Virus record (IMG/VR): IMGVR_UViG_3300021964_000172
Span: 1-40,165 of that record
Source of the DNA: a virus
Length of the DNA: 40,165 nt
Reading direction: 5' to 3' (one strand)
Notes under the pieces: generated by a model
Told to the model about the DNA's origin: nothing
What the model saw: only the letters and a program-made list of their open reading frames with translations
Databases searched by the model: none
Program-made: the position numbers and the translations under genes
Shown: piece after piece, positions 5,117 through 26,711 of the stretch
How positions within the stretch are numbered: position 1 is the stretch's first letter
How the letters are laid out: the number at the start of each line of letters is the position of its first letter

Positions 5117-5623
5117 TCATTCCTCTTCTTGACCTCCTTCGTCGGCTTTCACCGCAGGTGGGGTCATTGATGGGATTTCACCGTTCATGGTTCCATCCCA
5201 ACGACCTTCTTTGTAGCCCTTAACGAGAGCATCATAGGCCTTTTTGCCCATTGACTGAGCAAGTGCCTCAATATCCTCAAAGGCTCCACCAGTTCGCCCA
5301 TGAGGGAGAATAACGGTAGTAATCAAGTCAGCGTTAGAAATACCCGCAAAGGCAGCAACGACCATATTCTTCACAGAAGCCGCAGACAACTCTACTTCTT
5401 CGGGCAAAGACGATTCTCGGCCTCGGCGGGCGACTGGGAAATCGTCATAAGGACTCCCAATTGAGCGAATTGCTGTCCAATAAGTTGAGCGCAATTCATC
5501 GCTTTCCGTTGCATTTCCAAGTGTAATAGAAAGAGAAATCGCATTACCGACATCTCCCCTATCTTCACGGTCTAGCCATGCTAGAACCGCATTCGTGTTC
5601 TTTATCCAATTTTTCGCATTCAT
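5117..5623 (-). CDS. Cassette paralogue A, 168 aa
   Basis: The start at 5623 (MNAKNWIKNTNAVLAW) is chosen because GGAGG lies about ten bases upstream. The protein is clearly related to the gene at 6782-7306: both contain DELRSTYWTAIRSIGS, then FP.ARRGRES, HGRTGG and EGRWDG, and both end in an acidic GG(Q/S)EEE tail. A more distant relative is at 9505-9978. No membrane segment or catalytic motif is recognised. The conserved Arg/Trp/Gly blocks suggest a binding protein, possibly for DNA or for itself. Gene plus 5' flank are duplicated as a unit. Confidence 0.75.
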   Translation of the reverse strand: MNAKNWIKNTNAVLAWLDREDRGDVGNAISLSITLGNATESDELRSTYWTAIRSIGSPYDDFPVARRGRESSLPEEVELSAASVKNMVVAAFAGISNADLITTVILPHGRTGGAFEDIEALAQSMGKKAYDALVKGYKEGRWDGTMNGEIPSMTPPAVKADEGGQEEE

Positions 5624-5692
5624 GATAATCAATCCTCCAATAAAGGTTTTGATGCTCCGTTTTCCCCCCGAAGCAACCCAACCTTACAATAT

Positions 5693-6235: not shown

Positions 6236-6448
6236 TTATGAGACATTGTATGAACGGATTTTATGAGGGTAGGGAACGCCCCATATAAACTCATGATTCT
6301 CTTTGAAGGCTTTGATGAAGCGGTCAGCGTCAAAACGCTCATTATCACGACGGAACATGATAATAAAGCGTTCAATGACGGGAACATTAATACCGCCCAA
6401 TTCTGCTAGGGTTTCTGCTATTTTTTCGTAGTGCCTTCGTTGGAACAT
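6236..6448 (-). CDS. Small cassette protein, 70 aa
   Basis: The start at 6448 (MFQRRHYEKIAETLAELGG) is preferred over an upstream one because AACCTTATAT at 6470-6479 is placed as a TATA box for a leaderless message, and the upstream extension would run through the CCATATGG element. The protein is basic and aromatic, with RRDNERFDADRFIKAF then HEFIWG. The C-terminal half resembles that of the 5780 gene. No known domain is recognised. Confidence 0.6.
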   Translation of the reverse strand: MFQRRHYEKIAETLAELGGINVPVIERFIIMFRRDNERFDADRFIKAFKENHEFIWGVPYPHKIRSYNVS

Positions 6449-6469
6449 GATTAACCGCTTGATAAGCAC

Positions 6470-6479
6470 ATATAAGGTT
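6470..6479 (-). promoter_or_regulatory. TATA-like box AACCTTATAT
   Basis: On the minus strand the box lies 22-31 bases before the ATG at 6448. This is the distance expected for a leaderless archaeal transcript. Confidence 0.5.
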
Positions 6480-6498
6480 TTATTACCAAAGTATGCAA

Positions 6499-6506
6499 CC
6501 ATATGG
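6499..6506. repeat. CCATATGG element, copy 5
   Basis: The core lies in CAAAGTATGCAACCATATGG followed by GCTTACTTTGGG. The outer arms are CAAAGTA and TACTTTG, a coordinated change from the usual GCA/TGC. Confidence 0.7.
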
Positions 6507-6539
6507 GCTTACTTTGGGTATAATGGCCCGAAGGCTCGC

Positions 6540-6656
6540 TTATCGCTCAGATTCGTGAGCAGAATCAAGATAAGCAAAGAATCCGCACCTTTTACATTCA
6601 TAACATTCATTTTCGGGGTCAAACTCCATTTTTCCACACATACCCGGACAAAACAT
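6540..6656 (-). CDS. Mini zinc-ribbon protein, 38 aa
   Basis: I translated this short gene by hand: MFCPGMCGKMEFDPENECYE continues as CKRCGFFAYLDSAHESER. It has a C-x3-C pair and a C-x2-C-x2-C cluster, enough for one zinc site. It occupies its own interval between two CCATATGG elements. AACCTCATATC at 6677-6687 is about 25 bases upstream and could be its TATA box. The partner and function are unknown. Tiny zinc proteins recur throughout the window. Confidence 0.6.
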   Translation of the reverse strand: MFCPGMCGKMEFDPENECYECKRCGFFAYLDSAHESER

Positions 6657-6717
6657 GATTAACATAAAAATTGGCTGATATGAGGTTGCAGCGTTTCACT
6701 ATAATCAAAGTATGCAA

Positions 6718-6725
6718 CCATATGG
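6718..6725. repeat. CCATATGG element, copy 6
   Basis: The core lies in CAAAGTATGCAACCATATGG followed by TTAGGCTTTGCA. The left half is identical to copy 5 over 20 bases. Confidence 0.7.
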
Positions 6726-6744
6726 TTAGGCTTTGCATTAACCC

Positions 6745-6770
6745 CCCGAAAGGGGCCACAAGGGGGGAAA
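6745..6770 (-). terminator. GC-rich hairpin after paralogue B
   Basis: CCCCCCGAAAGGGG and the following AAGGGGGG can form a stable stem (CCCC-GAAA-GGGG, a GNRA-type loop on the plus strand). It lies just beyond the stop of the minus-strand gene at 6782. A terminator or processing role is likely. Confidence 0.4.
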
Positions 6771-6781
6771 ACCTTGCAGAA

Positions 6782-7306
6782 TCACTCTTCCTCGGAACCT
6801 CCTTCCGATTTGCCCGTATTTACAGGCGGTGGCGTGATTTGGGGAACTCCGTTGTTATCAACGGTGAGTCCATCCCAACGGCCCTCTTTAATGGCCTTAG
6901 TCATGTAGGAATGAGCCTTTGTGCGGTAAGAATCAACTAAATCGCTAAAAGTCTCATAAACGCCACCGGTTCGTCCATGAGGCACAATAACGGAAAGAAT
7001 CATGCTTTGGTGTTCAGTAGGGATTTGAGCAATAGCATGAGCCACACTTTCCTCCACAGTCGCCAAAACAAGTTCCTGTTCCTCCGAAAGCGCAGATTCT
7101 CGCCCTCGTCGTGCCGCAGGAAAACCCTCCATAGTGGAGCCAATTGAACGGATAGCCGTCCAATAGGTGCTTCTTAGTTCGTCCGTAGCCGCATTGTCGC
7201 CCAAAGTGAGCGATAGCAACACAGCATTCAAATTGTCGGATTTGGGTTGATTTTCAGCCCACGCCCGAACCTTGTTCGTGTTCAATGTCCAATTTTTCAT
7301 CTTCAT
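6782..7306 (-). CDS. Cassette paralogue B, 174 aa
   Basis: The start at 7306 (MKMKNWTLNTNKVRAW) has GAGGTGA close upstream. A much longer reading upstream is rejected because it would run through the palindrome region and antisense to a plus-strand gene. It shares DELRSTYWTAIRSIGS, ARRGRES, HGRTGG, KEGRWDG and the acidic GGSEEE end with paralogue A, and weaker blocks with the gene at 9505. The two leftward paralogues also share the 80-base 5' repeat. Unknown function. The duplication argues that its dose or diversity matters to the virus. Confidence 0.75.
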   Translation of the reverse strand: MKMKNWTLNTNKVRAWAENQPKSDNLNAVLLSLTLGDNAATDELRSTYWTAIRSIGSTMEGFPAARRGRESALSEEQELVLATVEESVAHAIAQIPTEHQSMILSVIVPHGRTGGVYETFSDLVDSYRTKAHSYMTKAIKEGRWDGLTVDNNGVPQITPPPVNTGKSEGGSEEE

Positions 7307-7344
7307 GTTTTTCACCTCGTTTTTAAAGTGTCTCCAAGTGTTTT

Positions 7345-7421
7345 CCCCCCTTGAAGCACCAAACCCCATGCAATAGCATATAAGGTTGATTCCATGCAAA
7401 GCAGTAATCAACCATATGGTT
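7345..7421 (-). repeat. Long cassette 5' repeat, copy 2 (upstream of paralogue B)
   Basis: It has the same order of blocks as the copy at 5664: CCCCCC..GAAGCA, CATATAAGGTTG, GCAAAGC, CAACCATATGGTTG. The arms GGTTGATT (7384-7391) and AATCAACC (7406-7413) pair perfectly, although the bases differ from copy 1. A TATA-like AACCTTATATG on the minus strand is at 7377-7387. Confidence 0.65.
7412..7419. repeat. CCATATGG element, copy 7
   Basis: It lies between the divergent genes at 7306 and 7460, with GCAAAGCA to the left and TGCACTTTG to the right. It is the point where the coding strand switches from minus to plus. Confidence 0.7.
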
Positions 7422-7459
7422 GCACTTTGTAGAAAGCCAAGAATAATCGCACCTGTTTG

Positions 7460-7759
7460 ATGAATATCATGCAAAGCGTGTTCGTCGTCCAAATCTGTGA
7501 ATTGCCCGCCAAATACCCCGAATGGAAAACTCAACTCCAACACGGAATCTTCCGTCGTCGTGAGGAAGCCGTAAATGCCATGCTCAATTTCATGGCTCGC
7601 AAAATGCGAGACGGTATTGATGAGATTCGTGAAATGTCCTCCACCAAGCGAGGCAAGGGCCTTGCCGACTACAACCGCAAAGTGGATGAAATCGTGGTGC
7701 AAATCCCACGCTCAATTCGTGTCCACGAATTGCCTCTCCGAGACAATCGGGGGTATTGA
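7460..7759 (+). CDS. Cassette protein, 99 aa
   Basis: First plus-strand gene of the array, starting MNIMQSVFVVQICELPAKYP. A TTG three bases earlier is a less likely start. The protein is basic and helical (RRREEAVNAMLNFMARKMRD) and ends in a beta-like VVQIPRSIRVHELPLRDN. It has no recognised domain. It is followed after seven bases by a strong TTCG hairpin and then by palindrome copy 8, so it is a self-contained unit. Confidence 0.6.
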   Translation: MNIMQSVFVVQICELPAKYPEWKTQLQHGIFRRREEAVNAMLNFMARKMRDGIDEIREMSSTKRGKGLADYNRKVDEIVVQIPRSIRVHELPLRDNRGY

Positions 7760-7766
7760 CCAAGAT

Positions 7767-7782
7767 GGGGGCTTCGGCCCCC
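7767..7782 (+). terminator. UUCG-tetraloop hairpin
   Basis: GGGGGC-TTCG-GCCCCC is a perfect six-base stem closed by a C(UUCG)G tetraloop, followed by CTCTTGG. It stands directly after the 99-residue gene. Confidence 0.6.
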
Positions 7783-7806
7783 TCTTGGGCCTTAACAAAG
7801 ATACGA

Positions 7807-7814
7807 CCATATGG
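7807..7814. repeat. CCATATGG element, copy 8
   Basis: The core lies in ACAAAGATACGACCATATGG, followed by TAATGATTATGCTTTGCA. The spacing to the right arm is longer than in other copies. Confidence 0.7.
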
Positions 7815-7819
7815 TAATG

Positions 7820-8363
7820 ATTATGCTTTGCACTTAATTAGAACCATATAAAGGCTACACCATAACGGACAGGGAAAAGCCTACATTGGTCTTTTTTGCG
7901 CTAATTTGTCCGTTATGGTGGGTGAATAAAAGAAACGCCGCCTACTCCATGCATATCCGACTAACTGCTCCTACTTTGTTTCCATTTTGCCATGTCCCTA
8001 GGAACCGTGTCAATTTGTTGCTTTCGGGTCTTACTGCGCTGTGTTTCGGCTTTGTTTCCGATTGGTGTTTATGGCCAATCAACCAAGGGAATGTGAAAAG
8101 GTGGGATGAAGAATTGGGTATCTTCAAGTATGATACGATTGGGTCGCACTCACTTTGAACGCTCTAATTGTCTTAAGAGCCATACTGCCGATTTCATGAA
8201 GTTGGTTTGTAGCCAACCGCCTTTTGAGCCTTAATCACTTTCACAGGGAACAATTACTCCATACCACTTGGTCGTCATAACTGCTTTGTGTCCCACAACA
8301 GGAGAAATCGCCCATTACCCCCGTTCAAAGGGCATTAATGGTAATCCCCTCCGAGGGGAGCGA
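7820..8363. other. Cassette interval with no convincing gene; possible structured RNA
   Basis: A TATA-like CATATAAAGG lies at 7845-7854. Just after it ACCATAACGGACA (7859-7871) and TGTCCGTTATGGT (7907-7919) form a perfect 13-base inverted repeat. Other stems are GTTGG/CCAAC near 8201-8217 and CCCCT-CCG-AGGGG at 8346-8358. A 69-codon plus-strand frame from 7949 (MHIRLTAPTLFPFC, ending WDEELGIFKYDTIGSHSL) exists but its first half looks unlike a protein. A minus-strand promoter-like box at 8395-8404 points into the interval. I read it as a likely non-coding RNA or decayed cassette. Confidence 0.35.
7859..7919. repeat. Perfect 13-bp inverted repeat
   Basis: ACCATAACGGACA at 7859-7871 is the exact reverse complement of TGTCCGTTATGGT at 7907-7919, with a 35-base loop. 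It starts within the expected first bases of a transcript from the box at 7845. Confidence 0.7.
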
Positions 8364-8438
8364 CCCCCCGAAGCAATAGAACCTCATGGTTAGCAGATAA
8401 GGTTGTTAATGTGCAAAGCAATCATCAACCATATGGTA
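8364..8438 (-). repeat. Long cassette 5' repeat, copy 3
   Basis: Blocks CCCCCCGAAGCAA, AGATAAGGTTG, TGCAAAGCA and CAACCATATGGT follow the same order as at 5664 and 7345. The pairing arms GGTTG/CAACC are at 8401-8405 and 8426-8430. Unlike the other two copies there is no paralogue gene on its minus-strand side. Confidence 0.6.
8429..8436. repeat. CCATATGG element, copy 9
   Basis: The flanks are TGCAAAGCAATCATCAA to the left and TAATGCTTTG to the right. It stands 35-56 bases before the starts of the following plus-strand gene. Confidence 0.7.
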
Positions 8439-8484
8439 ATGCTTTGTAATACCCTAAACAAATATGATATTGTATATTAGAACC

Positions 8485-8727
8485 ATGTCAAGAGAGATTG
8501 TGAACCTGCTATGCCAAACCTTTCCTAAAATCCTTCAGCCTTTTATGGAGAAGCAATTTAACCAAGCCATTATCACCGATATGCACTATGTTGATGAACC
8601 TCACGCCATGATTGCTCTTATTATTTTTGAACAATCATGGGCGGGATTTGCTGAGGCTATGACCCATCAAGCGATGATGGATATGATGGACATAGCATTA
8701 TCCAAGTTTCAAGAGGATATGGCTTAG
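8485..8727 (+). CDS. Cassette protein, 80 aa
   Basis: I prefer the start at 8485 (MSREIVNLLCQTFPKILQPF). An ATG at 8464 in frame would add seven residues, MILYIRT. No Shine-Dalgarno precedes either, so the message may be leaderless. The protein is acidic and helical and very methionine-rich near its end (MTHQAMMDMMDIALSKFQEDM). A small CCC-TTCG-GGG hairpin follows the stop at 8731-8740, then palindrome copy 10. Function is unknown. Confidence 0.55.
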   Translation: MSREIVNLLCQTFPKILQPFMEKQFNQAIITDMHYVDEPHAMIALIIFEQSWAGFAEAMTHQAMMDMMDIALSKFQEDMA

Positions 8728-9438: not shown

Positions 9439-9454
9439 GGACTCCTTTATATAC
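9439..9454 (+). promoter_or_regulatory. Strong TATA promoter GGACTCCTTTATATAC (copy 1)
   Basis: The 16-mer is identical to the one at 17911-17926, where it also stands 40-50 bases before a start codon. It contains a TTTATATA box with an upstream purine/C-rich BRE-like stretch. Expected transcription start is near 9480, giving a short leader to the gene at 9505. A CCCCGCAAAGGGG hairpin (9477-9489) lies in that leader. Confidence 0.65.
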
Positions 9455-9504: not shown

Positions 9505-9978
9505 ATGGATAACACAGCATGGGATTCACTTGTCATTGAAGTGAACGAATACCTTGAAGCCGACCAGACGCTTGACGCAGGATTGCGCCAAGTTGTTGAA
9601 TTGAACCTGCAAATCGGGACGAACAACCCTGATGAGCGAACTGCCGCCGAAGGTGCTTTAAAAGCCCTTTTGCGAGGCCGTGACGGAACCCCGTTCCGCC
9701 GTGGACAAAAGAGCGCAGTTCCCGCATCTGTTCGTGTCGCTATTGACCGAATTTGTGGCGTTGTTGAAGAAGCCTCCGTTGCTTACTACAACCACGACAC
9801 CATTATCGGTGCAATTACGATGAAGCACATCAAATCTGGCGGTGGAGCCTTTGATGACGCAGAAGATTACGCTTCTGCCGTTGTCAAGAGAACCCGAAAC
9901 AATTTGAGCAAAATGTTCAAAGACGGTTCTTGGGATGGTTCGGTTGATTCCCTTTTGGGCGAATCGGACGAACTTTGA
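9505..9978 (+). CDS. Cassette paralogue C, 157 aa
   Basis: The gene starts MDNTAWDSLVIEVNEYLEAD behind AAGGAG and a strong TATA box. It is a diverged relative of the genes at 5117 and 6782: DERTAAEGALKAL replaces DELRSTYWTAIRS, RRGQKSA replaces RRGRESA, KSGGGAFDD replaces GRTGGAFED, and KDGSWDG replaces KEGRWDG. The end is acidic (GESDEL). No known domain is recognised. It stands outside the palindrome array with the strongest promoter in the region, so it may be the ancestral or main expressed copy. Confidence 0.7.
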   Translation: MDNTAWDSLVIEVNEYLEADQTLDAGLRQVVELNLQIGTNNPDERTAAEGALKALLRGRDGTPFRRGQKSAVPASVRVAIDRICGVVEEASVAYYNHDTIIGAITMKHIKSGGGAFDDAEDYASAVVKRTRNNLSKMFKDGSWDGSVDSLLGESDEL

Positions 9979-17802: not shown

Positions 17803-17908
17803 AACATTGGTAAAGATAGCATTTTGGGGAACTGTCGGCGTAGCAACAGGTGTTGTGGGTATTGGCTTACTTGCCGCCCTTGACGACGCAGATTACCCTT
17901 TGGAGTAA
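17795..17908 (+). CDS. Small single-pass membrane protein, 37 aa
   Basis: Read by hand: MIKTLVKIAFWGTVGVATGV, then VGIGLLAALDDADYPLE. A glycine-rich hydrophobic helix spans residues 5-28 with a basic N-terminus and acidic C-terminus, so the N-terminus probably faces the cytoplasm. It has the size of a holin or small virulence-type membrane peptide, but function is unknown. Confidence 0.6.
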   Translation: MIKTLVKIAFWGTVGVATGVVGIGLLAALDDADYPLE

Positions 17909-17910
17909 GT

Positions 17911-17926
17911 GGACTCCTTTATATAC
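17911..17926 (+). promoter_or_regulatory. Strong TATA promoter GGACTCCTTTATATAC (copy 2)
   Basis: Identical over all 16 bases to the promoter at 9439-9454. It lies about 41 bases before the start of the ubiquitin-like gene, so it should drive that gene with a leader of about 20 bases. Confidence 0.7.
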
Positions 17927-17966: not shown

Positions 17967-18173
17967 ATGATTAAGTTAAGAATTATGAATGAAACTGGAC
18001 ATACAGAAGTTGTCCTCGCACAAAGCGAGGTTATTGACGAAATTGACCGACACCCTACCCATTGGGTCTTTATTGACGGAGAAATGGTTAGCCGAGAATC
18101 TATCGGTGAAATTAACTGGGAAACGGTTCAATCTGTTGATTTGACTCCCGCAATCGTTGGAGGGTGCTATTGA
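17967..18173 (+). CDS. Ubiquitin-like/MoaD-like beta-grasp protein ending GG-CY
   Basis: The 68-residue protein starts MIKLRIMNETGHTEVVLAQS, a beta-hairpin, then a helix (EVIDEIDRH), then WVFIDGEMVSRE, and ends VDLTPAIVGGCY. The final VxLxPAIxGG matches the C-terminal tail of MoaD/SAMP-type ubiquitin-like proteins. Two residues (Cys-Tyr) follow the Gly-Gly, so it would be a precursor needing cleavage, as known for the GGCF tail of QbsE cut by the JAMM enzyme QbsD. The virus also encodes a JAMM and an E1-like enzyme. The gene is alone between a strong promoter and a hairpin terminator, suggesting high expression. The fold is inferred from sequence pattern. Confidence 0.6.
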   Translation: MIKLRIMNETGHTEVVLAQSEVIDEIDRHPTHWVFIDGEMVSRESIGEINWETVQSVDLTPAIVGGCY

Positions 18174-18212
18174 AATTAGTGTAATTTCTTTACTCTTCCA
18201 AAACCGCATATT

Positions 18213-18255
18213 GGGGGTAGCGTGGGGTTAATCCTCCCTGCGCTATCCCCTTTTT
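18213..18255 (+). terminator. Hairpin plus T-tract after the ubiquitin-like gene
   Basis: TGGGGGTAGCGTGGGG pairs with CTCCCTGCGCTATCCCC around TTAATC, with one or two wobble pairs, and TTTTT follows at 18251-18255. It ends the single-gene unit from the 17911 promoter. Confidence 0.7.
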
Positions 18256-18261
18256 CGGGTG

Positions 18262-18642
18262 ATGCAACCCGATTTGATTAATTTTATCAACCAAAATGGA
18301 TTAAAAATAATGCTAGACCTGAAAGGATGGAAATTAACATCCTGTATTCAGATAAATGGTTTAGCAGTAGTAAAACCTGACTTCTATCCCGCCCGTCATG
18401 TCCTCGCTATGGGGACGAGGGGCTACATTTATGCCGAAGGGCAGACTCGGATTGAATACGCAGGGCAGACATTTTCATCAACAGAAGAATTGCTTCTTTC
18501 TTGTGGAAAAAATGCTATTCTGAATTTTAAGGACTGGGTATTCCTTGAAGAAATGGAGTGGGTAATAACCGATGGAACTAATTGGTTATCTTCTTTCTCT
18601 AATCTTTCTGAATTACCTAAACGAAGTAAATATAGGTGTTAA
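18262..18642 (+). CDS. Protein of 126 aa, unknown
   Basis: I start it at 18262 (MQPDLINFINQNGLKIMLDL); a GTG three bases earlier is the alternative and the ribosome site is weak. The sequence is mixed alpha/beta with several aromatic clusters and three cysteines that do not form a clear zinc motif. It ends two bases before the RNR gene, so it may be a partner of RNR, but this is only from position. Confidence 0.55.
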   Translation: MQPDLINFINQNGLKIMLDLKGWKLTSCIQINGLAVVKPDFYPARHVLAMGTRGYIYAEGQTRIEYAGQTFSSTEELLLSCGKNAILNFKDWVFLEEMEWVITDGTNWLSSFSNLSELPKRSKYRC

Positions 18643-18644
18643 AC

Positions 18645-20510
18645 ATGACTCAAGCCCCAAATAAGAAAATTTTATCTGACATTACTGTGCATATGAAATA
18701 CGCAAAATACAACCCCGAACTTCTCCGCCGAGAAACTTGGGATGAAATTGTTGAGCGAAACATGGAAATGCACATAAAAACCTATCCTCAATTAGAAGAG
18801 GATATTCGTGATGTTTATACTCATTTTGTCAAAACTAAGAAAGTTTTGCCTTCTATGCGCTCAATGCAATTTGGCGGTAAGCCAATTGAAATTAGCCCTA
18901 ATCGGGTCTATAATTGTGCTTATATGCCTATTGATACTCATATCGCTTTTAGTGAAGCCATGTTCCTATTGTTAGGTGGAACAGGTGTAGGATATTCGGT
19001 TCAACGACACCATGTTGAATTAATGGCTCCTATTCAGCATCCTAACTCAAACCGCCAACGACGATATTTAGTCAATGATTCAATAGAAGGTTGGGCTGAT
19101 GCAGTTAAAATTCTAATGGAGTGTTATACTGGTGTTAGAACATCTACACCTACATTTGATTATTCTGATATTAGACCAAAAGGCTCTCTTTTGAAAACTT
19201 CTGGTGGAAAAGCGCCAGGCCCACAACCATTAAGAGAATGTCTCGTTAAAATTGAAGGTATGCTTCAAAACATTCCTAATGGTTCTATGTTGAAACCAAT
19301 TCAAGCACACGATATTATGTGTCATATTGCTGATGCAGTTCTAAGTGGAGGTATTCGTCGTGCGGCTATGATTAGTTTATTCTCCGCAGACGACCATGAA
19401 ATGATTGCTTGTAAATCTGGTAATTGGTGGGAAAACAATCCCCAAAGAGGCAGGGCAAACAATTCAGCAGTTCTTTTGCGACACCGAGTTACAAAAGAAT
19501 TTTTTATGGATTTGTGGAATAGAATTAAAGCATCTGGTTCAGGAGAGCCGGGAATTTATTTCAATAATGATAAAGATTGGGGGACTAATCCCTGTTGTGA
19601 AATTGCACTCCGACCATATCAGTTCTGCAATTTAACTGAAGTTAATGCTTCAGATATTACAGACCAAGCGGATTTAGAATCAAGAGTTTCTGCCGCCGCA
19701 TTCCTCGGAACGCTTCAAGCAGGATATACTGATTTTCACTATCTTCGTGAAGTATGGCGTAAAGCAACAGAAAAGGATGCTTTGCTCGGTGTTTCTATGA
19801 CAGGTATTGCTTCAAATGTTGTTGAACATTTAGATTTAGAAATGGCCGCTTATGAAGTCAAGAAAGAGAATGAGCGTGTCGCTAAAGAAATAGGTATTAA
19901 TCCAGCATCAAGAACAACCTGTGTTAAACCTGCTGGAACGACTTCTCTTGTTCTTGGAACAAGTAGTGGGATTCATGCTTATCACGATGAGTATTATATT
20001 CGTCGCCTTCGTGTCGGTAAGAATGAAGCAATCTATGGTTATCTCGCAAACAATCATCCAGAATTGGTTGAGGATGAGTTTTTCAATCCGCACGAACAAG
20101 CGGTTATTTCAGTCCCACAAAAAGCACCAGAATCAGCGATTATTCGCCATGAATCAGTATTTAATTTACTAGAAAGAGTAAAAAACTTTAGCATTCGTTG
20201 GGTTCGTGCAGGACATAATGATGGATTGAATACCCACAATGTTTCTGCTACTATTTCTATTAAAGATGATGAATGGGAAACGGTTGCAGATTGGATGTGG
20301 CTTAACCGACATTATTATAATGGACTGTCTGTTCTCCCATATGACGGAGGCACATATACTCAAGCACCTTTTGAAACCTGCGATAAAGAAACATATGATA
20401 AATTGACTGAAGCACTACAAGATGTTGATTTGACTATGATTCAAGAATTACAGGACGATACTGACCTTTCAGGTGAAATTGCCTGTGCTGGCGGTGCTTG
20501 CGAAATCTAA
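18645..20510 (+). CDS. nrdJ: Class II (adenosylcobalamin) ribonucleotide reductase
   Basis: The 621-residue enzyme reduces ribonucleotides to deoxyribonucleotides for viral DNA synthesis. Key residues match the monomeric B12-dependent type: C91 in RVYNCAYMP, the active site NPCCEI with C317 and E319, C328 in FCNLTEVN exactly eleven residues after C317, and a C-terminal CAGGACEI pair (C-x4-C) for re-reduction. The GGTGVGYSVQ and KPAGTTSLVLGTSSG motifs are intact. It is shorter than the 739-residue Lactobacillus enzyme. It needs cobalamin, which must come from the host or sea water. There is no class I small subunit nearby. Confidence 0.92.
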   Translation: MTQAPNKKILSDITVHMKYAKYNPELLRRETWDEIVERNMEMHIKTYPQLEEDIRDVYTHFVKTKKVLPSMRSMQFGGKPIEISPNRVYNCAYMPIDTHIAFSEAMFLLLGGTGVGYSVQRHHVELMAPIQHPNSNRQRRYLVNDSIEGWADAVKILMECYTGVRTSTPTFDYSDIRPKGSLLKTSGGKAPGPQPLRECLVKIEGMLQNIPNGSMLKPIQAHDIMCHIADAVLSGGIRRAAMISLFSADDHEMIACKSGNWWENNPQRGRANNSAVLLRHRVTKEFFMDLWNRIKASGSGEPGIYFNNDKDWGTNPCCEIALRPYQFCNLTEVNASDITDQADLESRVSAAAFLGTLQAGYTDFHYLREVWRKATEKDALLGVSMTGIASNVVEHLDLEMAAYEVKKENERVAKEIGINPASRTTCVKPAGTTSLVLGTSSGIHAYHDEYYIRRLRVGKNEAIYGYLANNHPELVEDEFFNPHEQAVISVPQKAPESAIIRHESVFNLLERVKNFSIRWVRAGHNDGLNTHNVSATISIKDDEWETVADWMWLNRHYYNGLSVLPYDGGTYTQAPFETCDKETYDKLTEALQDVDLTMIQELQDDTDLSGEIACAGGACEI

Positions 20511-20519
20511 GGTGATTAA

Positions 20520-20888
20520 ATGACACTCTTCAAATCATTTGAAGAGTATTTAGAAACAGTAATATTAATGATTAGAGATTTGTCAGACGACTCTCTCAAA
20601 AGAATAAACTTAGCAATAAATGTCTGTGATTCATACATAGATGAGAATGAAAAAATGTTTAGGCTAAATACTACATTAAAAGAATGTTTTTGGGAAATTG
20701 AGGAAGCCATCCTTTGTGGTTTCCATAAATACCTAAAAGAACAAAGTGCTAAGACTAAAGAGTTGGTTGATTATCATAGAGTCAATTGCGAAGGAATGGA
20801 TTGTAAAATCTGTAAATCAAAAAAATTAACAATAAATAGAATGAGGAGTTTAAATGAGAGAACACGACCCAAATTATATTCTCAATAA
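20520..20888 (+). CDS. Protein of 122 aa with C-terminal cysteine motif
   Basis: The protein (MTLFKSFEEYLETVILMIRD) is helical for 85 residues and ends with HRVNCEGMDCKICKSKK, a likely zinc site. It starts ten bases after RNR behind AAGGTGA and overlaps the next mini-gene by 35 bases. No family is recognised. Co-expression with RNR is likely. Confidence 0.6.
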   Translation: MTLFKSFEEYLETVILMIRDLSDDSLKRINLAINVCDSYIDENEKMFRLNTTLKECFWEIEEAILCGFHKYLKEQSAKTKELVDYHRVNCEGMDCKICKSKKLTINRMRSLNERTRPKLYSQ

Positions 20889-21015
20889 GAGAAACAATAA
20901 ACAAATAGCCACACGCTGTCGTGTGTGCGGTGGGCAACTTATGGTTGCTGATGAAATTAAAAAAGAAATTCACAATAAATGTGATAATGATGATAAAAAT
21001 ATATATATGATGTGA
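20854..21015 (+). CDS. Small zinc protein, 53 aa
   Basis: Read by hand: MREHDPNYILNKRNNKQIAT, then RCRVCGGQLMVADEIKKEIH and NKCDNDDKNIYMM. The CRVCGG knuckle with HNKC supplies a possible single zinc site. GAGGAG lies before the start. It sits between the RNR operon and the 388-residue gene. Confidence 0.55.
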   Translation: MREHDPNYILNKRNNKQIATRCRVCGGQLMVADEIKKEIHNKCDNDDKNIYMM

Positions 21016-21019
21016 TAAA

Positions 21020-22186
21020 ATGAAATTAAATATATCAGTTCCCGACGATTCCAATAAATATTATAGTTGTGATATTACTTGCGAAACCTTTTCATTTCCT
21101 GAACATAAAACCGTTTCTTATATAAGAGCCGCAAAAGACCCTGTTCAAGCAGGTTTAGAAACATTCTGGAAAAACATTATTTCTCCAAGAAGAAAACAAC
21201 GGTATCATAGTCTAAGACAGCGAATACATTTTGCTGAAGAATTTCATCATATTGTATTTATTGAACAATGTCCCATTGTTCTTTCAAGACAAGGCATTCG
21301 CTACCACTTGAACGGTAAATCTTATAGTTTAGCAACCATTTGTTCTGCTTTGGCTAGAATTACTTTCAAGGCTTGCTTTGAAAAAGATGGTGCTAAACTT
21401 CTTTCTTCTCTTTATTCAACTCTTAATTTACCTGAAGATGTTCAGTATTGTCTTGAAAACCGAGCACCTTTTCATTTCTTTGTTGATTTTGAAAAACAAG
21501 AGGTTCGTTTAAATGTTGTTCAAATTGATGAGAAAATGCTGGCTATGGAAATTAGTGATGGTATTTGGGGCGAAATCACTCCTAAGCAATTAGATTCATA
21601 TTGTAGTTTTTATGTTCATGGAAAGAAAAGAGGTTCTTGGAAATATCTTTCTCCTAAGAGTCTTTATACTAAATTAATGGGTCGTGAACCTAGCAGTTCT
21701 GAGTTAAAGGTTATGATTGCCTTTTTGATGCAAAACAGAATGCAAGATATTGTTGATGCTAGGGCATTGGAATTGGTTGGAGATATGCTTGTTCAGCACA
21801 AAGGCCGTCTTTCTGCTGAATATGATGATGATGGTATTCTTAGCACTATTTATATTCGTGGTAAAGAGTATGATTGGATGCTAACCAACAACCGATATAA
21901 GTCAGGGATTCAAATGGTTTCAACTTATGTCTATCAACCAATAGTAGAAATCCTTACTGATGAAAATGATTCTAGCAAGGCTAAAAAGACATTTTCTGAA
22001 CCAGATTGGCGAGGCCCGATTTGTATTGATAATATGGCTGAAGGTTCTCCTTTAGGCGACCAATTCGCAACACGGGCATTGGCTTTATTAAACGACTTCC
22101 ACACAATTAAAATAGTGAATACAATTAGGCGGTATCTTACTGCTGAACCTAATGAATATAGAGTTGATAATGATGAATTGCGATGA
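21020..22186 (+). CDS. Protein of 388 aa, unknown
   Basis: The gene starts MKLNISVPDDSNKYYSCDIT and encodes a soluble mixed alpha/beta protein. Visible stretches include SPRRKQRYHSLRQRI (basic, about residue 55), GRLSAEYDDDGILSTIYIRG and RGPICIDNMAEGSPLGDQFA. I see no ATP, metal or nuclease motif. It overlaps the TFB gene by 17 bases, so the two are made together. A transcription- or replication-linked role is inferred from this position only. Confidence 0.65.
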   Translation: MKLNISVPDDSNKYYSCDITCETFSFPEHKTVSYIRAAKDPVQAGLETFWKNIISPRRKQRYHSLRQRIHFAEEFHHIVFIEQCPIVLSRQGIRYHLNGKSYSLATICSALARITFKACFEKDGAKLLSSLYSTLNLPEDVQYCLENRAPFHFFVDFEKQEVRLNVVQIDEKMLAMEISDGIWGEITPKQLDSYCSFYVHGKKRGSWKYLSPKSLYTKLMGREPSSSELKVMIAFLMQNRMQDIVDARALELVGDMLVQHKGRLSAEYDDDGILSTIYIRGKEYDWMLTNNRYKSGIQMVSTYVYQPIVEILTDENDSSKAKKTFSEPDWRGPICIDNMAEGSPLGDQFATRALALLNDFHTIKIVNTIRRYLTAEPNEYRVDNDELR

Positions 22187-23030
22187 ATGTGGTAGCAAAG
22201 ATAATTACTTTGATGAGATTCAAGGTGAAAGAATCTGTAATGAATGTGGTCTTGTTCTTGTGCAAGAAATGTTTGAAGAAACCGTCCATCTTTTAGATAC
22301 TGGCGGTAATCTGCAACATTCAGCAGATAAAGGGAAGTTAGGCTCAGTTATTACTGGGAAAGGTTCTTATAAATTTAATAAGTTTGGTAAAAATAGTGTG
22401 ATTCCACAATCTATACAAAATGGACTTGTTCATTGTAATATGGTATTAGCAAATGTAGCACCTAATCTTAAGTTAAATGAAAGGGTTGAGAAACTTTACA
22501 TGGACTTAAACAACAAAGGCATATTTGGCCGAAGTCAATTTGAAGCAAGAGCAACCGCAGTTGTTTTTTATGCTTTAAGAGAAAACGGGACTCCCTATTC
22601 ATTTAAAGAAGTAATGGGTGAATTTGAACCTAATTTAAAAGTAGTAAAGCGTTTGGTTAGAAAAATCAACCAAACCTATCGTAATAGTGCAAACTATATG
22701 CCTATCAATCCTCAGTATTTACTTGAACAAACTCTCAATAAAATTACTGATGATTTAGTATTCAAGCGTCAAGCGATTAAAGTGCTTGAATTTTTTGAAG
22801 CAAAGGTTGAACAGAATACCTTTAATAGAGGCCGTTCTTATTATGCTTCTATTATTTGGATTACTGCAAAAATGTATGTGAATACTCAAATTACACAGGT
22901 ATTGATTACAAAGAAAACTGGATTTTCTAGATTTAATATTCGCAGACAAACCAAAGAGATTCTTAGTATGATTGGATTAGAATTAGCCAATCAAGTTAAA
23001 GGAAAACAATTAAGTGAACTAGGTGAATAA
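22170..23030 (+). CDS. tfb: Transcription initiation factor TFB (TFIIB homologue)
   Basis: The start is at 22170 or the adjacent ATG at 22173. Residues 4-26 form the N-terminal zinc ribbon (CDECGS...CNECGL), followed by a linker with the B-reader-like GSVITGKGSYKF, and then two cyclin-like repeats (about 85-180 and 190-275). TFB recruits RNA polymerase to TATA-box/TBP complexes, so a viral copy could redirect host polymerase to viral promoters such as the TTTATATAC boxes seen here. At 286 residues it is close to the cellular size. It shows the host is an archaeon. Confidence 0.88.
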   Translation: MMNCDECGSKDNYFDEIQGERICNECGLVLVQEMFEETVHLLDTGGNLQHSADKGKLGSVITGKGSYKFNKFGKNSVIPQSIQNGLVHCNMVLANVAPNLKLNERVEKLYMDLNNKGIFGRSQFEARATAVVFYALRENGTPYSFKEVMGEFEPNLKVVKRLVRKINQTYRNSANYMPINPQYLLEQTLNKITDDLVFKRQAIKVLEFFEAKVEQNTFNRGRSYYASIIWITAKMYVNTQITQVLITKKTGFSRFNIRRQTKEILSMIGLELANQVKGKQLSELGE

Positions 23031-23031
23031 A

Positions 23032-23355
23032 ATGTTTGAAAAAGAATGGAATAAAATAGCAAAGAAAGTATATACAAATGCAGTTAATCATGGCTTTTGG
23101 AAAGAAAAGCCTAATGATGGCGAGCGCATGGCTTTAATTCATGCTGAAATTAGTGAAGCACTTGAAGCCCTGCGAGAAGGTAATCCTTCTTCATCAAAGA
23201 TTATTGAATACAGTAATCTTGAAGAAGAATTAGCCGATGCGGTAATCCGTATTATGGATTATGCTTTTGGTAAAGATTTAGATATAGCGGGTGCGATTCT
23301 CGCTAAGATTGAATACAATCAAAGCCGTGAATATATGCATGGTAAATCGTTCTAA
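23032..23355 (+). CDS. MazG-like nucleotide pyrophosphohydrolase
   Basis: The 107-residue protein has the EExxE and ExxD metal sites of all-alpha NTP pyrophosphatases: HAEISEALEALREG at about 40-53 and EEELADAVIRIMD at about 66-78. Such enzymes hydrolyse NTPs or dNTPs to monophosphates, and phage versions may clean the nucleotide pool or alter host alarmone signalling. It follows TFB by one base, and its ribosome site AGGTGAA lies in the TFB end. Substrate is not predictable from sequence. Confidence 0.82.
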   Translation: MFEKEWNKIAKKVYTNAVNHGFWKEKPNDGERMALIHAEISEALEALREGNPSSSKIIEYSNLEEELADAVIRIMDYAFGKDLDIAGAILAKIEYNQSREYMHGKSF

Positions 23356-23367
23356 GGAGGAATAAAT

Positions 23368-24123
23368 ATGGGAAAAACAGTAAAAGATATGAAATGTGGT
23401 TTTTGCGGCGTTACTGGACACACCGCTAGAACCTGTGAAGAAAAGAAAAAGCAAGCAGTTAAGGATGAAAGAAAGGCCAAAAGAAAACAGGCTAAAAAGT
23501 ATTACTATACCGAATCTAAAAGCCTTGCACCTCTTCTTGCGAAATTAACAGAAGAAGGAAAAACTGCATTGTTGAATAACGGATTTATGCGTAGCGCACA
23601 TTTCTTAGTTCAAACTAAGCCCGAAACTGCAATTCAAGAATTATTGGTTGAGCCAATGATTGAAGTTATTTCTAACCGAGCAAAACAGGAAGGGTGCAAA
23701 ATTGATTTTAGCCGTGAGCCGCATTTTAAGACTATTGAAAATAAGAACAAATACTTGGATTACTTGCTAACTGTTTCCTTCAAGGGACACAAGGCCCCTA
23801 TTAAGTGGTTAATTGAAGCAGAAGCCCCTAACCAAACACATAAGGGTATTGAACAGGTTGAAGATTTCTTGGCTTCCGTTGCGAATGTCAATGAATATCG
23901 CTTTATCGTGACTGATGGTTATTGGTGGCATTTTTGTCATCCAACAATTGATAGTGCTTTGGAGTGGACTAGTTTCACTATTGACGATAGTAGTTTTTGG
24001 TTGGATAATAATGTCGGTGCTATGGTGTTGGACATTAATCCTATTCAAAATATGAAGAAGGCCGCACTTGTTTTAGGTTTTCTAGGAATAGCCTTGGTGT
24101 TAAATAATTTTGGAATTATTTAA
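23368..24123 (+). CDS. CCHC zinc-knuckle protein with nuclease-like core and C-terminal TM helix
   Basis: Residues 10-23 read CGFCGVTGHTARTC, a canonical C-x2-C-x4-H-x4-C zinc knuckle, followed by a lysine-rich helix. The middle (LDYLLTVSFKGHKAPIKWLI then EAEAPN) resembles the beta-strand core of PD-(D/E)xK-like nucleases or host-specificity proteins. The last 20 residues (ALVLGFLGIALVLNNFG) form a membrane helix. CCHC knuckles usually bind single-stranded nucleic acid and are rare in prokaryotic viruses. A membrane-tethered nucleic-acid protein is an interesting reading but inferred. Confidence 0.6.
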   Translation: MGKTVKDMKCGFCGVTGHTARTCEEKKKQAVKDERKAKRKQAKKYYYTESKSLAPLLAKLTEEGKTALLNNGFMRSAHFLVQTKPETAIQELLVEPMIEVISNRAKQEGCKIDFSREPHFKTIENKNKYLDYLLTVSFKGHKAPIKWLIEAEAPNQTHKGIEQVEDFLASVANVNEYRFIVTDGYWWHFCHPTIDSALEWTSFTIDDSSFWLDNNVGAMVLDINPIQNMKKAALVLGFLGIALVLNNFGII

Positions 24124-24135
24124 GGAGGAATAAAT

Positions 24136-24339
24136 ATGAGCGAAGAAGAGAATATGAGCGAAGAAGAGAGAATAGTGAAAGCATATCGTGATTTAGGACA
24201 CAAGGTTGTATTCCACATGGAATATGACGCATATTTAAATTACACACTTGAACAGAAAATAGGACTTGAAAATTGTGGAGATGTTGCTTGCGAATACTGT
24301 TGGGTTGAAATTGATTGGAAGAAAATTAAGGAGGAATAA
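24136..24339 (+). CDS. Small acidic protein, 67 aa
   Basis: The gene opens MSEEENMSEEERIVKAYRDL, where MSEEE is repeated directly (a duplication of 18 bases that also duplicates the start; the second ATG at 24154 could serve). A CEYC pair follows near residue 53 with another cysteine at 47. The ribosome site is GGAGGAATAAAT. Function is unknown. Confidence 0.6.
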   Translation: MSEEENMSEEERIVKAYRDLGHKVVFHMEYDAYLNYTLEQKIGLENCGDVACEYCWVEIDWKKIKEE

Positions 24340-24341
24340 AT

Positions 24342-24521
24342 ATGAGAGAAGATAAATTAATGACAGGTTTTACTTGTATTTGTCTTGATGTGCCTTTTGG
24401 TCATCATGAAACGGTGGTCAAATGGCTACCGACAGATACAACCGCAGAATGTCTTGAATGTCAGCGAATCTGGGATTTAGACACAATTAGATATACAAAA
24501 GAAAATGGAGGATGGGAATAA
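24342..24521 (+). CDS. Small zinc protein, 59 aa
   Basis: Read by hand: MREDKLMTGFTCICLDVPFG, then HHETVVKWLPTDTTAECLEC, then QRIWDLDTIRYTKENGGWE. The CxC, HH and CLEC residues can make a zinc site. Its TAA overlaps the ATG of the E1-like gene as TAATG and its end encodes that gene's GGAGG, so translation of the E1 depends on it. Confidence 0.6.
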   Translation: MREDKLMTGFTCICLDVPFGHHETVVKWLPTDTTAECLECQRIWDLDTIRYTKENGGWE

Positions 24522-25078
24522 TGAGAAAAGTATTAATTATTGGAGCAGGTGGAATTGGAAGTTTTCTAATTCCAACATTAGATAAAGTTGGTCTTTACCG
24601 CATTCATGTGGCTGACCCTGATAGCGTAGAAACAAAGAATCTACCTTATCAAAACTTTAAGAAAGGTCATGTTGGGCAGAATAAGGCCCAAGTAATGATG
24701 GATTCTTATGAATCTGTCGCTACTTATAGTAAATATCCTATTTTGACTGAAAAACAAATGTCGGGCTATGACCTTGTGATTTGTTGTGTGGATAACATCG
24801 GAGTAAGACGAACCTTATACAACACAAGTTTTAAATGGCTTGACTTACGAGCGCAGGGCAGAAATGCCGCCCTTGTGTCGCATAAGGCCGACCCTAAAAT
24901 GTATGATGTGCTTCTAGCAGGAGATGATAGAAGTTATTCGTGTCAAGGTGATTCATGGGATGGAACGAATAGTAATGTTCATTTTATGCAAGTAGCAATT
25001 GCAGGATTAGGCGCACAATGGACGCAAAGATATTTTAACAAAGAAGAAGTAAGAGAATATATGGTGGTGAATGTATGA
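24521..25078 (+). CDS. E1/ThiF-like adenylating enzyme
   Basis: The 185-residue protein has the dinucleotide-type loop GAGGIGS at residues 8-14, then the E1 signature DPDSVETKNLPYQNF at 32-46 and the CCVDN strand at 88-92. C141 in SYSCQGDSWD lies where compact E1 enzymes carry the catalytic cysteine. No CxxC zinc pairs are present. Such enzymes adenylate the C-terminal Gly-Gly of ubiquitin-like or sulfur-carrier proteins and take them as a thioester. At 185 residues it is a minimal E1 domain (MoeB/UbaA are about 250). The GGCY protein at 17967 and JAMM at 26121 are its natural partners. Confidence 0.8.
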   Translation: MRKVLIIGAGGIGSFLIPTLDKVGLYRIHVADPDSVETKNLPYQNFKKGHVGQNKAQVMMDSYESVATYSKYPILTEKQMSGYDLVICCVDNIGVRRTLYNTSFKWLDLRAQGRNAALVSHKADPKMYDVLLAGDDRSYSCQGDSWDGTNSNVHFMQVAIAGLGAQWTQRYFNKEEVREYMVVNV

Positions 25079-26118
25079 GAACAAGAAAACAATATACTGA
25101 TGAAGAAATTGCATATATGGTTGTAAGTAGGACTCTCAAGAAAACTTGGGAAACTATTGCTGATGAAATGGAAGTAAAGTTCGGTTATCGTCGCAACCCG
25201 TCAAATCTTTCAATCAAATATAATACTTTGATTGGATTAGATTTTAGTAATCATTTTACTGATAAGCAAACACAGTTTGTTTTTGATGCTTGGCGAAATA
25301 ATTTTTCTATGAAGAAAATTATCGCTGGATTTGAGGAACAATTTCAGCAAAACATTAACAAAAATAATGTTGATTTTATCGTGAAACAGATGGCTCACGA
25401 ACAAAAAGTTAAACAAGAATTAACTGAAACAAAAAATAAAATAAAACAAAACATGGAGATGAAAAAGATGAAGAAAAGTGTATGGACAAAAGAAGAAGAT
25501 GAGCAATTGCTTGCTTGTGGTTCTTGGAAGAAGGCTATGGAATTGGATAATGGTCGGTCAAGGTCGGCTAAAAACAATCGTTGGACTATGCTTCAAAAAC
25601 AAAAACCAAGAAAAGGTGCAAAGCGTGGACGAATGACAATGGCCGAATTAGAAATGATTCGCAATTGTGAAACCGTTGAAGAAGCAATCGCTCTTAACCT
25701 GCGAAAGCCCGAAACAATTATTCGGCAATTTGCTACGCTAAAAAGTGTTTCCCCTCCTCAAAAGGAATTGAAGAAGAAAACTTCTAAGAAAAAGTCTAAG
25801 CAACGGTATGTTCCTCGTTGGACGAAAGAAGAGGACTATGACCTTATCTTAAACTTTTACGAACTTTCAATTGATGAAGCCCGAACCCGATTTAATCGGT
25901 CATACGGGGCTATCGCAACCCGCTTAGAAAGGTTGGTTGATAGCACAAAGCCTGAGCATATCTCTATGCTTATGGAGGCTTCTAAGGAAATTAAAACTCG
26001 CAAGCAAGCACAGAAGCCAACACCCAAAAAGAGCCGCAGAACGCTACGCAAGGAGCGAAAAAAGGCTAAGAAAGAGGATAAGTTGAAGGCCAAGTTGCGA
26101 AGAATCCGAGGTGAATAA
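25075..26118 (+). CDS. Multi-Myb/SANT-like DNA-binding protein, 347 aa
   Basis: The protein contains several Myb-like helix-turn-helix segments: KQYTDEEIAYMVVSRTLKKT near residue 5, SVWTKEEDEQLLACGSWKKA near 135, and PRWTKEEDYDLILNFYELSI near 243. Each has the W/Y-T-x-E-E-D opening typical of SANT/Myb domains. The C-terminus is extremely basic (RRTLRKERKKAKKEDKLKAK). It is likely to bind DNA or chromatin. It overlaps the E1 gene by ATGA and precedes the JAMM, so it is in the same message and could be a target or partner of the conjugation genes. That link is inference. Confidence 0.72.
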   Translation: MRTRKQYTDEEIAYMVVSRTLKKTWETIADEMEVKFGYRRNPSNLSIKYNTLIGLDFSNHFTDKQTQFVFDAWRNNFSMKKIIAGFEEQFQQNINKNNVDFIVKQMAHEQKVKQELTETKNKIKQNMEMKKMKKSVWTKEEDEQLLACGSWKKAMELDNGRSRSAKNNRWTMLQKQKPRKGAKRGRMTMAELEMIRNCETVEEAIALNLRKPETIIRQFATLKSVSPPQKELKKKTSKKKSKQRYVPRWTKEEDYDLILNFYELSIDEARTRFNRSYGAIATRLERLVDSTKPEHISMLMEASKEIKTRKQAQKPTPKKSRRTLRKERKKAKKEDKLKAKLRRIRGE

Positions 26119-26120
26119 AC

Positions 26121-26711
26121 ATGGGAAAAATTAAAGATAAATACTGGAAAGAAATTGAAAATGAAGATGATTCTGGCTATGATGATTGGGTGGCTGAAAA
26201 TGCCCGCATTGATGAAGCACGACTTACTGTTCAACAAATCATTGAAAACCACTTTGAAGAATTGCTTCAAGAACAATTAACTTCTTGTGCTGGCCCAAAA
26301 GAAAAACTTCTTGATGTTGCTATGCACAACCATAGTTTTCACGATACTATTTGGGAAGCATCAACGGTTCTTTTGCCCAATCTTGAAGTTCAAGTAGTTA
26401 TTGATGGTAAGAACAATTGTTTCGTATCAACAGGAACAGCAGGATATGTTGATTTCTTTAAACCCCCTGTTGGAATGAGTCTGCCTATTCGTTGTTGGAT
26501 TCATACTCATCCCTTTGGGGCGGCATACTTTAGTGGAACCGATATTCGGACTGTTTCTATTTGGGAACCAAATATGGAATGTGCATATGTTCTTGGTGGA
26601 GAAGGCCACTTTGGTTTTTGGAATCAAAGAGAACCGCAACAACTTGAAATCTATCGCAACTTTGAATCAGAAAAAATTCAAACTTGGAACAAAAAGGAGG
26701 AAGAAGAATGA
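26121..26711 (+). CDS. JAMM (JAB1/MPN) zinc isopeptidase
   Basis: Residues 126-141 read WIHTHPFGAAYFSGTD, which fits H-x-H-P-x6-S-x2-D, the full JAMM zinc motif (H128, H130, S138, D141). The N-terminal 60 residues are an acidic helical extension (EEIENEDDSGYDDW type composition). JAMM enzymes cut after Gly-Gly of ubiquitin-like proteins, either processing precursors or removing conjugates. In this virus the obvious substrate is the GGCY protein at 17967. It ends in KKEEEE because the stop region encodes the next ribosome site. Gene order E1, Myb-like, JAMM is tight (3-base or overlapping junctions). Confidence 0.83.
   Translation: MGKIKDKYWKEIENEDDSGYDDWVAENARIDEARLTVQQIIENHFEELLQEQLTSCAGPKEKLLDVAMHNHSFHDTIWEASTVLLPNLEVQVVIDGKNNCFVSTGTAGYVDFFKPPVGMSLPIRCWIHTHPFGAAYFSGTDIRTVSIWEPNMECAYVLGGEGHFGFWNQREPQQLEIYRNFESEKIQTWNKKEEEE

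Follow-up and report, generated by a model that had tools for sequence, protein, structure and literature searches.

Three genes on one strand of a virus-derived DNA, IMG/VR virus record IMGVR_UViG_3300021964_000172 (hereafter the window, 40,165 bases), are likely to constitute a self-contained ubiquitin-like conjugation and deconjugation system operating without an E2 enzyme, similar to the SAMP/UbaA/JAMM1 system of archaea (SAMP, small archaeal modifier protein). They specify a small modifier, a putative E1/ThiF-like adenylating enzyme and a JAMM metalloprotease (Table 1). A fold or family could be assigned to each of the three proteins, their active sites are nearly complete, the C-terminal Gly-Gly of the modifier is invariant, and the genes strictly co-occur in a fixed order. 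A preliminary description of this DNA had listed the same genes and motifs, and had read the products as a beta-grasp protein, an E1-like enzyme and a JAMM protease that should co-occur in related viruses. The genes are indeed present where it placed them, all on the plus strand and with the motifs named, and the results given below agree with these assignments.

Table 1. Positions in the window of the three genes and of sites associated with them
Feature	Position	Strand	Evidence
Ubiquitin-like modifier, predicted beta-grasp, 68 amino acids, GG-CY end	17967..18173	+	AlphaFold2 model, PDB fold matches, 83 distinct homologues
Codons of the invariant C-terminal Gly65-Gly66	18159..18164	+	83/83 distinct homologues
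Variable Cys-Tyr tail; 0-2 residues in relatives	18165..18170	+	Homologue ends, change counts on E1 tree
TATA-box region of the modifier gene, GGACTCCTTTATATAC; TTTATATA at 17918	17911..17926	+	TTWWATA survey of upstream regions
Terminator-like hairpin, 15 pairs, and T5 after the modifier gene	18213..18255	+	
E1/ThiF-like putative adenylating enzyme, 185 amino acids (188 from alternative start 24512)	24521..25078	+	
Codon of invariant E1 Cys144 (SCQ), candidate catalytic cysteine	24941..24943	+	SCQ in 112/112 distinct E1s
JAMM/MPN+ metalloprotease, 196 amino acids	26121..26711	+	AlphaFold2 model, fold matches, motif 114/114
JAMM motif HTHPFGAAYFSGTD, exact HxHPx6Sx2D	26502..26543	+	

Conservation of the gene set among related viruses

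Among 48 viral contigs of 49-185 kb, the E1 and JAMM genes are present in all 48 and the modifier gene in 47. The only contig without a modifier (G047) is truncated: its E1 gene lies 4.3 kb from the contig end and the usual place of the modifier is cut off. Most of these contigs were picked via the modifier, and the informative observations are that contigs so picked carry both E1 and JAMM and that those picked via E1 or JAMM carry the modifier. An independent anchor was provided by PCNA: all 21 PCNA contigs with at least 12 kb of upstream sequence are also among the E1 contigs, the two lists being compared by reading. The order modifier-E1-JAMM on one strand holds in 215/215 loci containing all three genes; loci overlap and contigs repeat, so that locus counts, here and below, are not numbers of independent viruses and counts of distinct sequences are the safer ones.

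The three genes are located in a replication neighbourhood (PolB, PCNA, clamp loader, TFB, ligase) and are under purifying selection, with median ratios of non-synonymous to synonymous substitution rates (dN/dS) of 0.20 / 0.18 / 0.43. The same key residues are found in all three genes of a divergent set (contig L158), in which the modifier is 48% identical. In 20/112 cases the E1 and JAMM genes overlap or are no more than 20 nt apart. In the window they are separated by a gene (25075-26118) for a basic protein of 347 amino acids with weak Myb-like and D5-regulator matches. This gene is not a fixed part of the set, because the E1-JAMM gap ranges from overlap to more than 800 nt.

The modifier and its C-terminus

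The modifier is predicted to be a ubiquitin-type beta-grasp protein. An AlphaFold2 model built with 48 sequences has a mean predicted local distance difference test (pLDDT) score of 86 and the secondary structure order E E H E E H E (E, strand; H, helix). When this model is compared with the PDB using Foldseek, ubiquitin, NEDD8, SUMO and ubiquitin-like domains make up nearly all of the top 50 matches (best match, E 8e-3, probability 0.97; template modelling (TM) scores 0.4-0.58). The matches among viral models are to giant-virus ubiquitins and to tip-J-like proteins of phages. Sequence searches of Pfam, NCBIfam and the PDB revealed no match to ThiS, MoaD, SAMPs or any PDB chain. The family also weakly resembles PinA, the T4 Lon-protease inhibitor (PF10465), with 27/48 members at E <= 1 (best 1.4e-4); the window modifier itself gives 0.019 and 15.4 bits, the cut-off being 27.

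The C-terminal sequence of the modifier is VDLTPAIVGGCY. Gly-Gly followed by 0-3 residues terminates 4 of the 210 open reading frames (ORFs) of the window, so that one such end is unremarkable by itself. Its conservation nevertheless exceeds chance, because the homologues were collected with search patterns that omitted the C-terminus and its Gly-Gly, yet all 83 distinct sequences end in Gly-Gly plus 0-2 residues. In the model, the last three residues (66-68) have pLDDT values below 50, placing the C-terminal Gly-Gly on a flexible, disordered tail. What follows the Gly-Gly is variable: the tail has no residue in 16 of the distinct modifiers, one in 8 and two in 59, and is of about 29 kinds. 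When mapped on a quickly built tree of 94 E1 sequences, the exact tail requires at least 50 changes and tail length 7.

Judged from this variation, only the Gly-Gly appears to matter within the modifier C-terminus, and a Cys-aromatic end is not conserved. The preliminary description had drawn a parallel with the Cys-Phe that follows Gly-Gly in QbsE and is removed by QbsD, and its reading required the whole Gly-Gly-Cys-aromatic end to be kept in relatives. The Gly-Gly part of this requirement stands and the Cys-aromatic part falls. The likeness to QbsE is accidental, because CY is found in only 6/83 distinct modifiers and others have a bare Gly-Gly or a one-residue tail; with tails varying so freely, QbsE-like Cys-Phe maturation as a family trait was rejected.

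The E1-like and JAMM enzymes

The E1-like protein carries the motifs GAGGIGS...DPDSVETKNL...SYSCQ and matches Pfam ThiF with 66 bits (3.3e-18; cut-off 28.1). Its profile matches UBA5 (1e-9), Cap2, MccB, the NEDD8 E1, Uba4, MoeB and ThiF in the PDB, and the protein also matches the PADLOC E1-E2 and PRTRC ThiF models. Residues conserved throughout the family are GxGGIG, D35, D37, K42, N43, Q47, K58, D94, R113, R117 and C144, numbered from the start at 24512. With its Rossmann domain and ATP-site residues, the protein can be placed by sequence in the E1/ThiF/MoeB superfamily; this membership stands, although its activity is questionable (see below). It includes no rhodanese domain, nor apparently an E2 domain; a search for an E2 with PF00179 (UQ_con) gave no match but was uninformative, since the control genomes gave none either.

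The JAMM protein falls below the cut-off of Pfam Prok-JAB (20.7 bits; cut-off 25). Its motif, HxHPx6SxxD, is exact in every distinct JAMM, with E89, H128, H130, S138 and D141 invariant (87/87 for the upstream Glu89). The AlphaFold2 model (pLDDT 90.6) matches the JAB1/MPN fold: the best PDB match is AfJAMM (1oi0), and AMSH, Caldiarchaeum Rpn11 and Pyrococcus PfJAMM1, both alone and bound to SAMP2, are also found (E 2e-3 upward, probability up to 1.0). With the sequence profile, AMSH-LP is found at 1.7e-4; two designed repeat proteins scoring above it were regarded as artefacts. A role as a mere maturase was rejected: in 41 loci the modifier is encoded with a bare Gly-Gly end and the JAMM gene is nevertheless present, which implies a role for the JAMM beyond precursor trimming. 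Trimming of CY, as proposed initially, is plausible in the window virus and is not the conserved role. As a separate observation, a run of glutamates at the JAMM C-terminus is nearly invariant in relatives, and many window ORFs end in 3-4 Glu (3' ends 14725, 15497, 15769, 26711, 26995, 30174 and others). These runs probably reflect the ribosome-binding site of the next gene overlapping the stop codon.

Transcription signals of the modifier gene

The TATA-like sequence TTTATATA lies 49 nt upstream of the modifier ATG. In relatives, TTWWATA is found at -60 to -36 in 58/95 distinct modifier upstream regions, as against 6/108 for E1 and 1/107 for JAMM. Since the modifier gene has its own TATA-like box as well as a 3' hairpin and T run, it is probably a transcription unit of its own. 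This would be consistent with a need for more modifier than enzymes.

The terminator proposed earlier is thus recovered, and so in part is the claim that the modifier alone has such a promoter: most relatives have a TATA box before the modifier gene and not before E1 or JAMM, but an identical second copy of the 16-mer GGACTCCTTTATATAC is present at 9439-9454, upstream of ORF 9505-9978. The 157-residue product of this ORF looks paralogous to those of ORFs 5117-5632 and 6782-7702, both on the minus strand, and the three may be copies of one small repeated gene that could share its regulation with the modifier. A short hairpin, GGAGT...ACTCC, is located at 17902-17917, directly 5' of the modifier TATA box, and similar ones are seen by eye in some relatives. 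It could be an operator or the terminator of the preceding gene.

Viral and host context

The window encodes PolB, PCNA and a clamp loader, identified by eye in the translations, together with TFB, GroEL, an ATP-dependent ligase and a B12-dependent ribonucleotide reductase. This agrees with the published gene content of magroviruses, the tailed viruses of Poseidoniales (PMC10768690, PMC12999244). On this basis the window is described as a magrovirus-like fragment of about 40 kb, from a virus of these marine group II archaea and with no named close relative. In INPHARED, which seems to be without named magroviruses, TFB had no match and the best PolB match was 25% identical. The ribonucleotide reductase (18636-20510) is 66% identical to that of Microcystis phage Mel-JY01 and 63% identical to that of an Oceanospirillum phage, which by sequence suggests gene exchange between bacterial and archaeal viruses.

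In a scan of genome contigs, the matches to the modifier all came from virus-like contigs of a single Altibacter bin, apart from one spurious Thorarchaeota match of 15 residues. Three contigs of this bacterial bin, EAC109 (L156, L157 and L158), contain genes of magrovirus type and most likely represent viral sequence placed in the bin, not bacterial DNA. The magrovirus and marine archaeal virus papers searched, which did not extend to Philosof 2017, Prabhu 2025, Zhou 2023 or supplements, contain no mention of ThiF, ubiquitin, JAB or JAMM. No paper was found that joins magrovirus and ubiquitin, and Poseidoniales, virus and ubiquitin together returned only papers whose titles suggest no connection.

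Proposed activity and alternatives

From these observations we infer how the three proteins might act on one another, a protein conjugate as their product, and the nature of its targets. The modifier would be produced from its own promoter and, where one or two extra tail residues are present, these would be cut by the JAMM or by a host protease to expose the Gly-Gly. The E1-like enzyme would then adenylate the terminal glycine and pass the modifier to lysines of viral or host proteins, either via a Cys144 thioester or straight from the adenylate; a dedicated E2 is probably not involved. Later removal by the JAMM would make the tag reversible. Host regulators or proteolysis are a reasonable guess for the targets, by analogy with Haloferax, in which sampylation can route TBP2 to the proteasome for degradation (PMC4895103).

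Several observations weigh against a conjugation system. The main doubt concerns the chemistry of the E1. In MoeB-type E1s, the arginine of NLxRQ touches the ATP phosphates; in the viral family this position is Tyr in 110/112 sequences and Arg in none, and because the arginine is always replaced, adenylation is not guaranteed. R113 and R117 might compensate for its loss. The enzyme is also short, and its invariant Cys144 aligns near a UBA5 cysteine that we take to be a probable zinc ligand, not the catalytic one. The fold matches of the modifier and of the JAMM are modest (E about 0.01 to 0.002, with modest TM-scores), the modifier gene lies 2.3-7.0 kb from the E1 gene and outside its operon, and partners for a sulfur relay could come from the host.

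This last point bears on the possibility that the modifier is a sulfur carrier. The E1 would then generate a modifier thiocarboxylate from which sulfur passes to tRNA or a metabolite, as with ThiS, MoaD, Urm1 and QbsE, and the JAMM would only mature or recycle the carrier. Such transfer is the ancestral function of ThiS/MoaD and their E1, the window E1 matches ThiF and MoeB models too, and small operons combining a ubiquitin-like protein, an E1 and a JAB are known in sulfur pathways (PMC1779556, rows 4a-4e). However, thiamine and molybdenum cofactor operons are without a JAB, and JAB-associated E1s are, in the argument of Iyer et al., closer in action to eukaryotic E1s (PMC1779556). The viral E1 is not fused to a rhodanese, and rhodanese (PF00581), aminotransferase V (cysteine desulfurase family, PF00266), PALP (cysteine synthase family, PF00291) and ATP_bind_3 (PF01171) were matched in none of 35 viral contigs and were matched in the control genomes. 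Since no sulfur-relay gene was found there and viruses with a bare Gly-Gly retain their JAMM, gene content favours conjugation over sulfur transfer, which we consider unlikely.

Counter-defence without target tagging is a distinctly less probable explanation. The JAMM would strip host SAMP-like tags off virus proteins, and the modifier and E1 would saturate or decoy the host machinery. The numerous JAMM-type putative deSAMPylases of archaeal Borg elements have been interpreted in this way (PMC12660748), and ubiquitin-like proteins are used by bacteria to tag phage (work cited in PMC12660748). Stripping host tags requires no virus-specific E1, however, yet the E1 is conserved with the modifier in long contigs, and the modifier is seen only in viruses or in the one bin with virus-like contigs. 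Counter-defence overlaps with conjugation and may be its purpose. Least probable of all, and by our estimate very improbable, is a virion assembly pair processing a structural protein in the manner of the ubiquitin-like protein I and the JAB protein K of the lambda tail. Although the fold of the modifier resembles some models of phage tip protein J and a TAPI/TAPK pairing has been described (PMC1779556), the viral genes sit among replication genes with no recognisable structural block, an E1 is present here and absent from the described tail modules, and the modifier is a free protein of 66-68 residues.

Viruses whose archaeal host is very common in the ocean thus probably label proteins of infected cells, much as human cells do by means of ubiquitin. 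If the three proteins do conjugate, a complete ubiquitin-like writer-eraser set would be a core trait of archaeal viruses, present in every sufficiently long contig examined. These viruses would then bring a ubiquitin-like system with them instead of merely hijacking one. It seems possible, if somewhat short of an even chance, that magroviruses, which are common among the viruses of marine archaea, carry as core genes a private tagging code of modifier, E1 and eraser. This code would redirect host proteins, perhaps to the proteasome or to inactivity, independently of the host SAMP system. With about 450 residues in all, the set would offer biochemistry a minimal E1-only conjugation system, and tag conjugates would be searchable in marine metaproteomes without culture of the host.

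Relation to known systems

The viral set is not categorically new, because crAss-like phages carry an E1 and a JAMM, and Borgs carry JAMMs and one SAMP. In crAss001, gp76 (ThiF) and gp77 (Prok-JAB) are adjacent and the E1 likewise has no NLxRQ arginine, but this E1 has 383 residues with an N-terminal extension, and the JAMM motif is HSHNNM compared with HTHPFG in the magrovirus-like proteins. No free GG-ending beta-grasp protein was found near the E1-JAMM pair of crAss-like phages; a 'TAIVGG' within gp76, preceded by only about 37 residues, is likely a coincidental candidate for a modifier end. Such pairs lie at 6256-8654 in crAss001 (L325), 6404-8660 in DAC15 (L326) and 6598-8654 in L327, grouped with genes for primase and uracil-DNA glycosylase, and have the JAMM motif HSHxxMxxFFSGTD. 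The Methanoperedens Borgs, likewise mobile elements of archaea, have putative deSAMPylases of the JAMM type, and one has a SAMP; in their case an E1 is reported from the genome of the host, the JAMM is in many copies and no fixed three-gene set is described (PMC12660748).

The same three parts are found in bacterial operons of a ubiquitin-like protein, an E1 (often with rhodanese) and a JAB (PdtH/PdtF/PdtG, quinolobactin; Iyer et al. 2006, rows 4a-4c), in which the predicted site of JAB action is the C-terminal glycine, as here. The E1s of these operons are mostly rhodanese-fused and tied to sulfur metabolism, unlike the viral enzyme. CBASS Cap2/Cap3 and other bacterial antiviral ubiquitin-like systems share an E1 related by profile (Cap2, PADLOC E1-E2) and a JAB isopeptidase partner (PMC10097602). 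They serve host defence, their E1 carries a fused E2 domain, and CBASS conjugates the cGAS itself, whereas the virus has a separate small modifier.

A close functional parallel is SAMP1/2/3-UbaA-HvJAMM1 of Haloferax volcanii. Differences are that the viral set is virus-encoded and clustered, its modifier has a tail of 0-2 residues and no detectable sequence similarity to SAMPs, and its E1 has only 185 residues and lacks the NLxRQ arginine. The viral modifier may thus work like SAMPs, but in view of the missing ThiS/MoaD sequence match it is not classified as one of them. Both systems combine a free GG-ending beta-grasp modifier, a single E1 of the MoeB/ThiF type and a JAMM; the Haloferax system has no dedicated E2 or E3, and the viral one probably works without them too. 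In Haloferax, HvJAMM1 cleaves precisely after the terminal Gly and lysine conjugation depends on UbaA, which provides a precedent for an E1-only pathway (PMC4443979).

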